A stretch of DNA of 64,000 nt from Desulfitobacterium metallireducens DSM 15288 (lineage in GTDB: Bacteria > Bacillota > Desulfitobacteriia > Desulfitobacteriales > Desulfitobacteriaceae), in the NCBI RefSeq assembly GCF_000231405.2, contig NZ_CP007032.1:1612001-1676000 (forward strand). The letters run 5' to 3'. Below the pieces are notes generated by a model. The model was given only the letters and a program-made list of their open reading frames with translations. It made no database searches and was not told where the DNA came from. Numbering within the stretch: position 1 is the stretch's first letter; each line of letters opens with the position of its first letter. Below are positions 33,236 to 39,255 of the stretch, piece after piece. The position numbers and the translations under genes were made by a program.

Positions 33236-35962
33236 CTACTTGACAGGGGAAAGATCGATTACGACGTTATCGATAAAAATCTTGACGAGTTCTGGGTCAA
33301 ATTGGGTTCCTGCATTATTAGTCAGTTCTTCGAGAGCCTTCTCTTGCGTAAAAGGCTTACGATAGCTACGGTCATTGATCATCGCATCATACGCATCCGC
33401 AATGGCAATAATTCGTGCGTGAAGCGGTATTTTATTACCCTTCAAGCCTTTGGGATAGCCGTTGCCATCCCAACGTTCATGATGTGCCAAAACATCTATA
33501 GCCATATCTGCCATATCATTAACCGTACTCAAAATACGATAGCCAATTTCTGGATGACGTTTGATTTCAATCCACTCTTCCTTAGTCAACTTTCCAGAAT
33601 TACTGAGGACTTTTTCGTCAATGCCAATTTTTCCGATATCATGCAGTAGACCAACATTTTTAAGTTCCAAAACGTCTCTTTCAGGTAAATTTAGAGCTAT
33701 CCCTATGCGCTGACAGAGCTCTGAAACGCTATGCGAGTGATGTTCTTCTTGTTTGTTCTTTTCATAAAGAGTATTTACAATAGTTTGGATGGCTTTTCCG
33801 CGCATACTTGGACTCTCAAAGAGCTTCATTTTATACATGTTATCTTCCGCTTTTTTTAAAATCTCATCAATCGATTGAGTTGAATAGCGTTTGGTCTCAA
33901 AGCCAAAAGAAATTGAGAGCTGAATCGAACCCACCTCTTCCTGGGTAGCCAACTTTTGGATTCGTTTCAAAATCCGTTCTGCTTCTAAACGATCGGTATT
34001 GGGTAATAAGAGAACAAATTCATCCCCACCGAGTCGCGCCAAAATATCATCCTTACGGCAGGCTTTTTTCATGACTTGCCCCACTTTACTCAGCAGTTGA
34101 TCACCGAATTCATGTCCAAAAGAATCATTCACAAGTTTCAAGCCATTGACATCTGCCATCATGACCGATAACGGATAATTCCGCACCACATCAAGGCGTT
34201 TTAACTCCTCTTCATAAAACCGCCGATTATAAAGCCCGGTCAGTTGATCATGATAGCTAAGATAAAGAATTCTTTCTTCGTTCTTTTTGTGATCTGTCAC
34301 ATCCTGTATCGTTCCAATCATGCGAAGAGGTTCCCCTTCAGAATTCACTTCAAGTTCACCCAGTCCATGGACCCACCGAACCTCCCCATTTTCATGACGC
34401 ACGATTTGATATTCAAAGTCGTAACATTCCTTATCCAATTGAAAATGTTCGGTTACGAGATCAAGCCAATCGGGATGAATGAGCGTCATGTATCCTTCAA
34501 GGGTATGGGGGAAACTCTCTTCTATACCAAGAATTTCATTTAATGTTTGAGAGCAGTGCCATTGCCCTGTTTTATAATCCATGATATAACTGCCAGTATG
34601 GGCAACCCGCTGAGACTCAAGTAGTAAATATTCACTATCGCGAAGTAACTTCTCCGTCTGTTTGAGCTCTGAAATATTGATTACAAAACTAGATATTCCT
34701 ACCACTTCACCGTTCTTTAAGACAATGGGCGACCAATACATTTGCCAATAGAGAGGGGTACCGTTTTCTTCTTGTCTGACGTCTTGGAGCTCAGCTACAC
34801 AATCGCCTGCCAGAACCTGTTTAAAATTGGCTTGAGCCAGCTGCGCATAAGGATGGTTACCGAATGCCTCTAGCATATTCATGCCAACTTCAATCTTTGA
34901 ACCGAAAATTTTTAACATCATATCCTTATGTTCAAGGTTAAAATTCAGATAACAATATCCCTTATCCAGGGAGCAAACGAGGACATCAGGTGAACTTTCA
35001 AAAATCGCCTGCAACAAATTATTCTTGTATTCCAACTGACAATTGATTTCATTGATCTCCTGAGTCCGCTGGATTACCTTGCGATTGAGGGTCCGGTTCC
35101 AGTAAAAAAGTCCAAAGAGTAAGAGGATTCCGACGAAACCCAAAAATAAAATGAAGCGAAAGTTCTCTGCCCAAAAGCTCGGTAAACTAGAGATACCCAG
35201 CCACCTTGCATTAATGGATTCCATTTCCTGATCTGATATTTTATCAAACCCAGACTCAAGCGTATTCAAAAGCTCAGTGTTACCTACCTTGACGGCTCTG
35301 TAGAATTGACTCGTATAGAGAGAGGTATCTGTATAGTGAAAATTATCTTGAATCCCCATTTTATATAGATAATAAAGTGCCGGAGGTTTTCCCATCGTAA
35401 AGATGGATATTTTATTATCCTTAGCCGCTTGTATAAGATCTTCTGCAGAATCGAACTCCGTGATATTGGTAATACCTTGTTCGTTTAAGACCTCGATACA
35501 GTGGTCCCCTTTTTTTGCAGCGATTTCAAAACCCCGGATCGAGTCGGCATTATGAATCCCTGAAATATTATTCTGAAAAAAAATTGGAACTTCTATAGTT
35601 GCATAAGGTTTTGTAAAATCAAACAATGTTGTGCGTTGCTCACTATATGAGATCGTATCAATTACATCAAATTGCCCAGCTAGCATACTCTCATATGCTT
35701 CATTCCAGGGCTTTCCGGTTATGTAGACCTTTATTCCTGTCTTCTGCTCAAAAAGTTTCCATTGGTCAATGCTGATTCCTTGTAATTCACCTTGGCTATT
35801 TCGAAACGAGTATGGCGGGTAATTTTCATCAATAACGACCTGAATGGATTGAGAGGACTGTTGCGCTGCAAGTAGAGATGACGCAGTGCTCAATATAAAT
35901 AATAGGGATAGAGATAACCCAAGTACCCACAAAAAAAGTCTTTGAGGCTCACTCTTTCTCAT
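33236..35962 (-). CDS. Periplasmic-sensor PAS-PAS-GGDEF-HD-GYP cyclic-di-GMP protein
   Basis: A membrane receptor of about 908 residues. Signal-like segment (about 8-32), SBP_bac_3 solute-binding domain (about 38-262, IQVVIDENYPPYSF), transmembrane helix (about 268-290), two PAS domains (about 315-570), GGDEF (about 575-735), HD-GYP (about 745-905). RKDD plus intact GGDEF suggests a cyclase with product inhibition. LLHDIGKIGI, HHERWDGNGYP and IADAYDAM suggest an active phosphodiesterase. The outside domain may sense an amino acid. ATG at 35962 is preferred; the ATG four codons earlier abuts its ribosome binding site. Confidence 0.9.
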   Translation of the reverse strand: MRKSEPQRLFLWVLGLSLSLLFILSTASSLLAAQQSSQSIQVVIDENYPPYSFRNSQGELQGISIDQWKLFEQKTGIKVYITGKPWNEAYESMLAGQFDVIDTISYSEQRTTLFDFTKPYATIEVPIFFQNNISGIHNADSIRGFEIAAKKGDHCIEVLNEQGITNITEFDSAEDLIQAAKDNKISIFTMGKPPALYYLYKMGIQDNFHYTDTSLYTSQFYRAVKVGNTELLNTLESGFDKISDQEMESINARWLGISSLPSFWAENFRFILFLGFVGILLLFGLFYWNRTLNRKVIQRTQEINEINCQLEYKNNLLQAIFESSPDVLVCSLDKGYCYLNFNLEHKDMMLKIFGSKIEVGMNMLEAFGNHPYAQLAQANFKQVLAGDCVAELQDVRQEENGTPLYWQMYWSPIVLKNGEVVGISSFVINISELKQTEKLLRDSEYLLLESQRVAHTGSYIMDYKTGQWHCSQTLNEILGIEESFPHTLEGYMTLIHPDWLDLVTEHFQLDKECYDFEYQIVRHENGEVRWVHGLGELEVNSEGEPLRMIGTIQDVTDHKKNEERILYLSYHDQLTGLYNRRFYEEELKRLDVVRNYPLSVMMADVNGLKLVNDSFGHEFGDQLLSKVGQVMKKACRKDDILARLGGDEFVLLLPNTDRLEAERILKRIQKLATQEEVGSIQLSISFGFETKRYSTQSIDEILKKAEDNMYKMKLFESPSMRGKAIQTIVNTLYEKNKQEEHHSHSVSELCQRIGIALNLPERDVLELKNVGLLHDIGKIGIDEKVLSNSGKLTKEEWIEIKRHPEIGYRILSTVNDMADMAIDVLAHHERWDGNGYPKGLKGNKIPLHARIIAIADAYDAMINDRSYRKPFTQEKALEELTNNAGTQFDPELVKIFIDNVVIDLSPVK

Positions 35963-36084
35963 CTGTTTCCCCATCCTTTTCGTATCATTTATCTGAATAA
36001 TATTCTACTAATTTCGAGAATATTTTTCATTTTCCTGCAGAATGAACATTTTTTCACATTTTTTTATTCACAGCAACGCAAAAA

Positions 36085-36119: not shown

Positions 36120-38480
36120 TTAGTTTTTTAGCCTCTTATGTTGTTTTACCAGAACAATGATTACAGTGAGTGCCGTTAGAGCTATCCCTGTAATAGCAAC
36201 TACTCCCTGAAGCGCTAAAGTTGCAGGAATGTAAGTCGTTGAAAATCCACCTAATGTTTGATGACTTAACCCAAGCGTAAGTGCTTTGATTCCTGGAATG
36301 AATTTAATTTGATAGATAATATGTCCGGCAAGAGCCAACGGAGTAAAAGCAAATACAAGTTTAATTCGCGTGGAAGCTGCTTTCGTTTTGAAGGTTTTCC
36401 CCAACCACCACCCGATCATTCCTCCAAGTATAGCTGAGAGGAAATAAGCCAAAGTGAATGAAACTTTCCACTGGGTCGCAGGCCATATCTTCTGAAGGGG
36501 TTCATAATAGCTGATTGGTAGTATTATTGAAAACAATATGCCAATAAATACAGTATAACCTTGGTTTACACGTTTAAGGTGCCAAACCTCTCGTGCTGGG
36601 AACCTTAAATTGACATGTACCGAATCATGAGGGCAATTTCGAACACAGTTAAAACACAATTTACAATCGAGGTTATTATCAAGGTAAGGAAGATGTTGTG
36701 ACATGGGACACCCCTTAACATTTCCTTTGCCGACATAACAGTCGAAAGTTGTACATTTATTGAGGCAAACTGCAGGATCAGACCTAACTTCAATGAGAGA
36801 ACCAATCGATGCGGTACCTACAAACCCTCCGAGAGGACAGAAATGACGGCACCAGGCATGGCGAGGATAGAGAACACTAATTAAGATCGCGGCTAATTGA
36901 ATGACAATCAGCAATAAGGCCGTATAAAGGGGATTCGAACGCATATCTGTAATAATCTCAACCCAAAAGACCAGAAGAAATAATGTGCTAATGATGAGAT
37001 AATCATATTTGATGAACACTTCTGGAACAGAACGATGGGGATTAAATTTATTTTGAACATAATTCATGACCGTAGAAAACGGGCAAATCGTACACCATAC
37101 CCTTCCTAAAAAGGGGGATAAGATCGCCAGTGCAGGCCACCAAATCCCCCAAACCAAAGTAAATATTTTCATAATAATTGATAAATGGGGAGAAAAGAGC
37201 ATTCCTGCAATGACAAGGAAGAATAATACTGCGGAAATACGCCGTAACCAGGGAAGAAAAGTTCCTTTCTTTAATAAGTTTTCAAAGAAAGGCCACCGTA
37301 ATAGATTGATTTTATGACCTACTTGCTCTGAAGTCGGTCCAAAGAAGATCTGTTCAAGGCCAATCGTATTCTCAGACGCAAGAAAAAATGAACGTTCAAG
37401 AACTTGAATCAGCTCAGTTACGTTTCCTTGTCGGTAGTGATGAGAAAGTAAGAGCTGGGTCGCTTCCGAAGTGAGGATGGGTGTTTTACGATGATTCTTC
37501 TGGGCGAGTTTTTCGAGGATCCCCTGTGCAAGCACAGGGATATCTCGCTTACGATCTCGGAGTGGAGTGATCGTGTAATGATGATAGAAACACGCTTTAA
37601 GCTCAGGTTGAAGCTTTTGCTCTGTTACTCGCTGTTGGATTTGCAGACTGCCAATAACTAAGCATTTCAACGGACGTGCTTTTATTATTTGAGCTAAAGC
37701 GAGCTGGGTTTGAGGAGAAATATCATCAATTTCTTGAATAAACAATGTTCCCCCAGCTGCAACATCAAAAAGTTTATCATACATTTTCTCCCATTGCTGG
37801 TCAAACCGACGACCATCGACAACAACAAAAGGAGCAGCTTCTCCGAAGAGATTTTGATGAACATACCAGGCCATCATTTGTCGTCCAGTTCCCCGCTCCC
37901 CGAGGACAAGTAAATTTCCGGATTGCTCTCTTATTTCACTGAGTTTCCGCTCAACTTCTTTTGTCGTTCTGACACTTCCCCAGATTCCATAAAACTTATC
38001 TTGATATTGGGTCTGTTTAATTGCTGAACGTAATACTTCCTTATATTTATTTTCAGAAAGCATTTGATTGGCTTCAATCAGGTCCTCGGCCAGTTCTTCA
38101 ATAATGGATTGATAGATTTGTGGTTTTCGGAGCAAAATTTGGGCGAAATCATCCGCTGATATACTGAGAACATGTGAATTCTCTAAACAACGAACTGAGT
38201 AAGCATAAGGTTTCCCTGTGACTAAGGAAAGTTCACCAAACACAGCTTCTGGACCTGCGACTAAAACTTTTGGCGAGCCAAAATGCTCATCTTTGAGAAC
38301 TTCGACGCTTCCTTCACAAAGCAGATAAAATGATGAGGGGCGTTGCCCCTGTTTAATGAGTAAAACTCCTTCTGGATACGCTTCCCACCTAAACTCTCTA
38401 GCCAGTTCTGTTATTTCTTGGGCGCTTAGTTCAGAGAAGAAGGCGATATTTGCAAGGTAATGTTCTTTTTCCATATTCAT
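36120..38480 (-). CDS. cNMP-binding / degenerate sigma-54-type AAA+ / membrane 4Fe-4S polyferredoxin fusion
   Basis: A 786-residue three-part protein. Residues about 15-135: CRP-type cNMP-binding domain, but with KPYAYS where cAMP binders have PRxA. Residues about 165-385: sigma-54-activator-like AAA+ module (PLRDRKRDIPVLAQ, GNVTELIQVLERS). Its Walker A ends in Arg200 instead of Lys (GERGTGR), Walker B reads GGTLFIQE, and the GAFTGA loop is absent. Residues about 410-780: several membrane helices and NapH/NosR-like cysteines 463/466, 544/548, 572/576/581/591 and 606/609/612/616. There is no DNA-binding domain. Probably a membrane electron-transfer protein with sensory modules; the true role is unknown. 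Confidence 0.85.
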   Translation of the reverse strand: MNMEKEHYLANIAFFSELSAQEITELAREFRWEAYPEGVLLIKQGQRPSSFYLLCEGSVEVLKDEHFGSPKVLVAGPEAVFGELSLVTGKPYAYSVRCLENSHVLSISADDFAQILLRKPQIYQSIIEELAEDLIEANQMLSENKYKEVLRSAIKQTQYQDKFYGIWGSVRTTKEVERKLSEIREQSGNLLVLGERGTGRQMMAWYVHQNLFGEAAPFVVVDGRRFDQQWEKMYDKLFDVAAGGTLFIQEIDDISPQTQLALAQIIKARPLKCLVIGSLQIQQRVTEQKLQPELKACFYHHYTITPLRDRKRDIPVLAQGILEKLAQKNHRKTPILTSEATQLLLSHHYRQGNVTELIQVLERSFFLASENTIGLEQIFFGPTSEQVGHKINLLRWPFFENLLKKGTFLPWLRRISAVLFFLVIAGMLFSPHLSIIMKIFTLVWGIWWPALAILSPFLGRVWCTICPFSTVMNYVQNKFNPHRSVPEVFIKYDYLIISTLFLLVFWVEIITDMRSNPLYTALLLIVIQLAAILISVLYPRHAWCRHFCPLGGFVGTASIGSLIEVRSDPAVCLNKCTTFDCYVGKGNVKGCPMSQHLPYLDNNLDCKLCFNCVRNCPHDSVHVNLRFPAREVWHLKRVNQGYTVFIGILFSIILPISYYEPLQKIWPATQWKVSFTLAYFLSAILGGMIGWWLGKTFKTKAASTRIKLVFAFTPLALAGHIIYQIKFIPGIKALTLGLSHQTLGGFSTTYIPATLALQGVVAITGIALTALTVIIVLVKQHKRLKN

Positions 38481-38673
38481 TAAATCACCTTCATGAATGA
38501 AACATAATTTTCTGAATTTTCATTTCTTTGGATTATACTAACACAGATACCGGTCTATATAAATCGTTTCTCATAATGAATACAATATTTCTGTTTGTTT
38601 AGTGCCTTTTTTAATCTCTTTCCATTATGTATAATTAAATAAGACTATTATAAAATGAGGAGTGTGCCGTAAG

Positions 38674-39255
38674 GTGAATAAAGTTATACTTTTGTCAGGA
38701 AGCCCACGACCTGATGGAAATACCTTTCAGGTTTTGCATGAAAGCCTAAAGATTATCGAAAGCCAAGGTGTCGAAGCTGAATTGATTAGTTTGGCAGGAA
38801 AAAAAATTCAATCCTGTATTGCCTGTGGAAAATGTGCAGAACTCAAGAAATGCGTTCTAAATGATGGAGTAAATGAAATTATTGAAAAAATCAGAAATGC
38901 TCAAGGATTTATCGTTGGATCACCTGTCTATTACGGCACAGCGCGCGGGGATTTAATGTCTCTTCTCCAGAGAGTAGGTAAGGTTTCAGGTGCTACCGAT
39001 CATTTTCTTTCTTGGAAAGTAGGCGGCCCAATCGCTGTTGCCAGAAGGGGTGGCCAAACGTCCTCAATTCAAGAAATGCTCATGTTTTACCTTATGAACG
39101 ACATGATTATCCCAGGTTCCACATACTGGAATATCGCCTTCGGCCGGACCCCTGGAGAAGTACTGGAGGATGAGGAAGGAATTCAAACCATTCGCCGATT
39201 CGCTGAAAATGTTGCACAGTTAATTAAGAAAATCTATCCAGAGCCGGTTTCGTAA
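38674..39255 (+). CDS. Iron-sulfur flavoprotein (NADPH-dependent FMN reductase fold)
   Basis: A 193-residue flavodoxin-like protein. The FMN-binding loop GSPRPDGNT is at residues 9-17, and a CX2CX2CX5C cluster (Cys48, 51, 54, 60) is typical of the iron-sulfur flavoprotein (Isf) family. GSPVYYGTARGDLMSLLQR is the second flavin-contact segment. Likely a soluble electron carrier or quinone/oxygen-detoxifying reductase. The start is GTG at 38674 with GAGGAG 11 bases upstream; an earlier GTG overlaps that site. It is divergent from the polyferredoxin fusion, with about 190 bp between. A TATAAT at 38630-38635 may be its -10. Confidence 0.87.
   Translation: MNKVILLSGSPRPDGNTFQVLHESLKIIESQGVEAELISLAGKKIQSCIACGKCAELKKCVLNDGVNEIIEKIRNAQGFIVGSPVYYGTARGDLMSLLQRVGKVSGATDHFLSWKVGGPIAVARRGGQTSSIQEMLMFYLMNDMIIPGSTYWNIAFGRTPGEVLEDEEGIQTIRRFAENVAQLIKKIYPEPVS

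Follow-up and report, generated by a model that had tools for sequence, protein, structure and literature searches.

A membrane polyferredoxin fused to a degenerate sigma-54-activator AAA+ module, an apparently undescribed kind of protein in several bacterial phyla

Sigma-54 activators of the NtrC/NifA type (bEBPs) and membrane polyferredoxins of the NapH/MauN, NosR and YccM type (Fer4_5) are among the closest described relatives of the protein family analysed here, and two polyferredoxins, NosR and NirI, have links to gene expression. The family resembles the activators in the fold of its AAA+ core and lid, in its sequence, which is similar to those of NifA and NtrC1, and in having an N-terminal regulatory domain ahead of the AAA, but it lacks their Walker B acid pair, GAFTGA loop, arginine-finger motif and DNA-binding domain and it also occurs in organisms without detectable sigma-54. 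With the polyferredoxins it has in common two CxxCP-type motifs by membrane helices and two ferredoxin-type cysteine groups; unlike them it carries about 390 N-terminal residues of cyclic nucleotide-binding (CNB) and AAA domains, and it falls far below the NapH cut-off and has no FMN-binding domain of the NosR kind. The CNB fold is also that of CRP/FNR-family regulators, whereas their helix-turn-helix is missing from the family and the phosphate-binding arginine is absent in nearly all members. Because the defining features of activators fail, we placed the family with the membrane polyferredoxins and not with the activators. No description of the CNB-AAA-polyferredoxin architecture was found in the openly accessible literature searched; the protein is real, and it is apparently of a so far undescribed kind that is present in several bacterial phyla.

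The gene lies on the minus strand at positions 36120..38480 of the window, the 64,000-nucleotide stretch of Desulfitobacterium metallireducens DSM 15288 that was analysed (the source genome is one contig of 3,176,073 bases); all parts described below are on the same strand. The open reading frame starts with an ATG, 5' of which lies a probable ribosome-binding site, AAGGTGA (38485..38491; TCACCTT on the forward strand), and it encodes 786 amino acids that, according to the reading frame, Pfam and the homologues, comprise a CNB domain, a degenerate sigma-54-type AAA+ module with its lid and a membrane polyferredoxin. The Pfam families above cut-off are cNMP_binding (residues 34-117), Sigma54_activ_2 (169-294), AAA_lid_14 (308-378) and Fer4_5, the last in two stretches of which the best is 441-485 (45.3 bits against a cut-off of 22). 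Pfam found no DNA-binding domain and no helix-turn-helix is present, in agreement with the first-pass annotation of the sequence. The AlphaFold2 model of the whole protein has a mean pLDDT of 78.9. A sigma-A-like promoter (TTGTCA-N17-TATAGT) recurs upstream of part of the Desulfosporosinus homologues; this promoter aside, no regulator site was recognised 5' of the gene and its homologues.

The CNB-like domain covers residues 5-118 (38127..38468) and is defined by Pfam (PF00027, E 7.7e-18), by alignments and by its fold, the corresponding part of the model matching CNB structures with a Z of about 18. Its phosphate-binding cassette reads GKPYAYSV, with PYAY where PRxA is expected, so that the missing PRxA pattern, already remarked on from the sequence, is real. 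The cAMP-type phosphate-binding arginine is absent in nearly all of 68 members, being counted in 4, all of them non-cyanobacterial. In six short cyanobacterial members Pfam found no CNB domain, and the AAA and polyferredoxin parts are still there. A long helix (residues 120-163, 37992..38123), with a pLDDT near 50 over part of its length in the AlphaFold2 model, connects the CNB domain to the AAA module.

The AAA+ core (residues 164-305, 37566..37991) is recognised as sigma-54-activator type by Pfam, and the AAA part of the model superposes on NtrC1 with a Z of 21 and an rmsd of 2.3-2.6 over 213-214 residues. Alignments place Arg200 instead of Lys in the P-loop GERGTGRQ (37878..37901), and Gln249 instead of Asp in the Walker B motif GGTLFIQE (37731..37754), which thus reads QE and not DE. 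Within the lid (residues 306-383, 37332..37565; Pfam PF25601) the sensor-II arm is GNVTEL (37410..37427) as against the canonical GNVREL. These residue changes and the absence of GAFTGA had been read from the sequence beforehand, and the alignments confirm them all. By inspection of the alignment, the arginine-finger motif FRxDLYYRL is also missing, the window protein having LKACFYHHY there instead. The 13 aligned Bacillota members all have Arg200, carry Q, R, K or H in place of the Walker B Asp, and lack GAFTGA, the arginine-finger motif and the sensor-II arginine.

The exchange of the Walker A Lys for Arg holds for the window protein and the main Bacillota clade (17/18) but not family-wide, since an alignment of 68 members from all clades has Lys in 39/39 cyanobacterial proteins. 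The first-pass annotation had held that its reading would fall if homologues kept Lys, Asp and GAFTGA: distant clades do keep the Lys, whereas the Walker B Asp-Glu pair is intact in none of the 68 aligned members (0/68) and GAFTGA is absent from all of them, and the same is true of six further Armatimonadota-type proteins. Judged from these alignments, all members have in common that the Walker B acid pair and GAFTGA are lost, and Arg200 characterises the main Bacillota clade. As the cyanobacterial members keep the Walker A Lys, nucleotide binding and conceivably slow hydrolysis are possible in them. The least degenerate member, L184 7420-10530 from a Nitrospirae-type MAG, consists of CNB, GAF and AAA domains followed by the polyferredoxin; its GAFADA is the nearest approach to GAFTGA among the members and its sigma-54-domain score is strong (143.7 bits, Pfam). 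Decay from an ordinary activator is therefore visible in the family, and L184 is a good entry point for studying how an activator became a polyferredoxin head. In short cyanobacterial members the AAA is heavily eroded. If our interpretation is true, the family holds a graded record of ATPase disarming, from the nearly intact-looking Nitrospirae-type AAA to the eroded short cyanobacterial one.

The membrane polyferredoxin half (residues 395-786, 36123..37298) is supported by Pfam Fer4_5, hydropathy and the model, and has about eight predicted transmembrane helices. It contains a CxxCP motif (C463 and C466, 37083..37094), a CxxxCP motif (C544 and C548, 36837..36851) and two cysteine groups, C572, C576, C581 and C591 (36708..36767) and C606, C609, C612 and C616 (36633..36665), each of which probably binds a [4Fe-4S] cluster. 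All 12 cysteines are identical in 68/68 fused proteins and in 11/11 stand-alone relatives. If the N-terminal soluble domains are set in the cytosol, both CxxCP-type motifs and both ferredoxin groups are predicted from hydropathy and the positive-inside rule to be cytosolic too. The NapH/NosR-like character first ascribed to these cysteine groups holds in part: the similarity to NapH is real, but the NapH model (TIGR02163) scores 39.6 bits against a cut-off of 213.05, and Pfam found no FMN-binding domain, a NosR feature, in the 786-residue protein. A fold search with the membrane-half model gave no match, which says little because the pLDDT of that model is 69.6. No relative of the membrane half has a solved structure, so the prediction of electron transfer is drawn from the cysteine motifs.

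Stand-alone polyferredoxins of the same type, 440-500 residues long, exist in Bacillota (for example G000:C1:373488), so the polyferredoxin module can work alone. They are about 30% identical to the fused family over the membrane half and have the same 12 cysteines, but they lack the regulatory head and differ at three positions, with Asp, Phe and mostly Phe where the fused proteins have Glu508, Pro549 and mostly His596. One of them is encoded in the window's own genome (L134 8151-9832, G000:C1 at about 373 kb), with a small membrane protein before it and, by inspection, a DUF1858-like protein and a hemerythrin/PAS-type protein after it.

Of 61 related genomes, the window's own counted, 28 encode the protein at full length with an unchanged domain order, and, the window protein aside, these homologues are 47-64% identical to it. 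Among the named records returned by an alignment-based contig scan are many Desulfosporosinus, Thermincola, Gracilibacter and Heliorestis genomes; more distant homologues came from Xenococcus sp. PCC 7305 and from an Armatimonadota, a Riflebacteria and a Nitrospirae MAG. The distant homologues have the domain order of the window protein by Pfam, and two Nitrospirae-type ones have an extra GAF domain. Sampling of whole phyla gave full-length members in 71/292 cyanobacterial genomes, in 7/246 genomes of the Nitrospirae-type phylum and in 7/201 of the Armatimonadota-type phylum; for the phylum of a deltaproteobacterial MAG (G453) there was no full-length match in 195 genomes, a sample that had no positive control. 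In a tree of the AAA half, a branch with an SH-aLRT of 99 separates the family from 12 true activators, and a tree of the polyferredoxin half is compatible with one origin. Taken together, the two trees fit one old fusion.

The sigma-54 core-binding family was not found in any of the 18 tested cyanobacterial genomes that carry the gene, nor in the one-contig, Heliobacteria-like genome G332 or the Armatimonadota MAG. It was found in the other tested Bacillota hosts and in most Nitrospirae-type hosts, and the window's host genome has sigma-54 and several true activators. Because the gene is present in hosts without detectable sigma-54, it cannot encode a sigma-54 activator there, and the protein needs no sigma-54. 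The members scanned by Pfam contain no DNA-binding domain.

None of the window neighbours has a conserved place beside the homologues. A divergent gene (38662-39255, plus strand, GTG start) encodes an FMN_red-type, iron-sulfur-flavoprotein-like protein with a CxxCxxCx5C motif; it had been put forward as a redox partner, a suggestion we dropped when no homologue of it turned up in any other neighbourhood examined. Downstream on the same strand as the gene (33236-35974, minus strand) lies a 912-residue protein with SBP_bac_3, PAS, GGDEF and HD domains, the last with a GYP-like motif, which probably makes and degrades c-di-GMP. A conserved operon was looked for in Bacillota as well, and there is none.

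Cyanobacterial copies are mostly orphan genes without conserved neighbours. A cyanobacterial subfamily of about 900 residues (57-95% identity within it, mostly 36-39% to other members) stands apart in that 6/9 members are followed on the same strand by a cysteine synthase, either immediately or after one intervening gene. Two of the members linked to cysteine synthase are plasmid-borne, in Aulosira laxa and Pseudanabaena galeata, and both plasmid islands carry psbA and petC, with SQR-like, DsrE and rhodanese genes on one or both. Judged by sequence inspection, HdrA/B/C-like genes precede two further members of the subfamily, and one member has a nifH-like gene nearby. In two related Nitrospirae-type members a cysteine synthase is three genes away. 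These neighbourhoods suggest that at least one branch is tied to sulfide and anaerobic low-potential redox metabolism, and the links of the one cyanobacterial subfamily, which do not cover the Bacillota members, suggest a function in redox balance under sulfidic or anaerobic conditions. As most members are orphans without conserved neighbours, the sulfur link may be confined to one subfamily. Among the 61 relatives, dissimilatory sulfite reductase occurs in 25/28 gene-bearing and 11/33 other genomes, a difference (Fisher p 8e-6) that is confounded by kinship; a tie to this enzyme was rejected on that ground and because the genome that holds the window gives no dsrA hit above cut-off.

Purifying selection on the degenerate AAA and its lid is strong. 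By part, dN/dS is 0.133 for the CNB domain, 0.088 for the AAA core, 0.068 for the polyferredoxin and 0.055 for the lid, the lowest of all, and mean identity among Bacillota members is 59% for the AAA and 78% for the lid. The low values of AAA and lid indicate that an ATPase fold without its catalytic residues is maintained. We consider it likely, though well short of certain, that the protein is a polyferredoxin that transfers electrons at the membrane under the control of a non-catalytic AAA module and, in most members, a CNB-like sensor. The cytosolic regulatory head would derive from a one-component sigma-54 activator. Its AAA module, which no longer has the residues for ATP hydrolysis and for sigma-54 contact, would be a structural and possibly nucleotide-binding adaptor between the CNB-fold sensor and the membrane half. 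The head would thereby control electron transfer by the membrane-bound [4Fe-4S] polyferredoxin, and since the predicted topology places all cysteine groups on the cytosolic side, the quinone pool would probably exchange electrons with a low-potential carrier in the cytosol. We infer the electron transfer, its partners, the ligand and the head-membrane coupling, and likewise the direction of control. The idea of the first-pass annotation that transcription-factor parts have been reused is borne out by the loss of catalytic residues throughout, by retention without sigma-54 and by the 12 intact cysteines, whereas gating of electron flow by a ligand or by redox state is a step that we still infer.

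The main rival to control of the polyferredoxin by its head lets the signal flow the other way: the polyferredoxin would sense membrane redox state, and the CNB and pseudo-AAA head would be the output that binds or releases a protein partner. A lid with the lowest dN/dS of any part is what is expected of a partner-binding surface, and the link of NosR and NirI to gene expression speaks for it, but the CNB domain is missing in some members when the 12 cysteines are never lost, and no conserved partner gene lies beside most members; we regard this reversal as unlikely, while giving it real weight. We attach little credence to the view that the head still acts in transcription, for instance by pairing with true sigma-54 activators in a dominant-negative way while the membrane half sequesters it. 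The activator AAA fold and the sigma-54 and true activators of the window's host would suit it, yet the family persists in cyanobacteria and further genomes with no detectable sigma-54, no checked member has GAFTGA and no scanned member has a DNA-binding domain.

Catalytic residues decay differently in each clade, the CNB domain can be missing and stand-alone polyferredoxins exist, as might be expected if the AAA head were a merely tolerated evolutionary relic and the polyferredoxin alone mattered. The dN/dS and identity values of the AAA and lid argue against this, as do N353, E356, L357 and D313, which are invariant in 68/68 aligned members, and a relic therefore seems quite improbable to us. 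Fusion of two neighbouring genes by a sequencing error, which the first-pass annotation had named as a possible pitfall, has no finding in its favour and virtually no chance of being the explanation, because the same full-length frame is present in 28/61 relatives and many named genomes, that is, in dozens of independent genomes. Beyond control of the polyferredoxin by its head, it is possible, and we put it forward tentatively, that these proteins make up an ancient class of redox regulators, spread over several phyla, whose activator AAA+ module was converted into an allosteric gate that does not hydrolyse ATP and acts on a membrane iron-sulfur protein; the class would serve sulfide or low-potential redox control in both anaerobes and cyanobacteria.

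If control by the head is true, the family would show clearly how transcription machinery can be turned into a device for membrane redox control, in an architecture that is widespread and mis-annotated. Plasmid-borne cyanobacterial copies are labelled in databases as 'nitrogen assimilation regulatory protein' or 'cyclic nucleotide-binding domain-containing protein'; in cyanobacteria without detectable sigma-54 such annotation misleads, and the family goes unrecognised there. Synechocystis slr2059 (Fed9) was considered as a known cyanobacterial member and rejected, its cluster cysteines at residues 84-125 making it a small ferredoxin (PMC4284462). Synechococcus elongatus has a Fer4_5 match that may be a member. 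The copy in a close relative, L009 (G016:C1:2249985-2252309), has a single in-frame TAG in the AAA region and is either a pseudogene or an assembly error. Thermincola-type genomes (L062, L109 and other loci) have two paralogues, one with the Walker A Lys (GERGTGKT) and the other with Arg. The second plasmid of Pseudanabaena galeata (NZ_CP112876.1, 26970-27555) carries a broken partial family copy in three pieces, and an intact copy sits on another plasmid of that strain.
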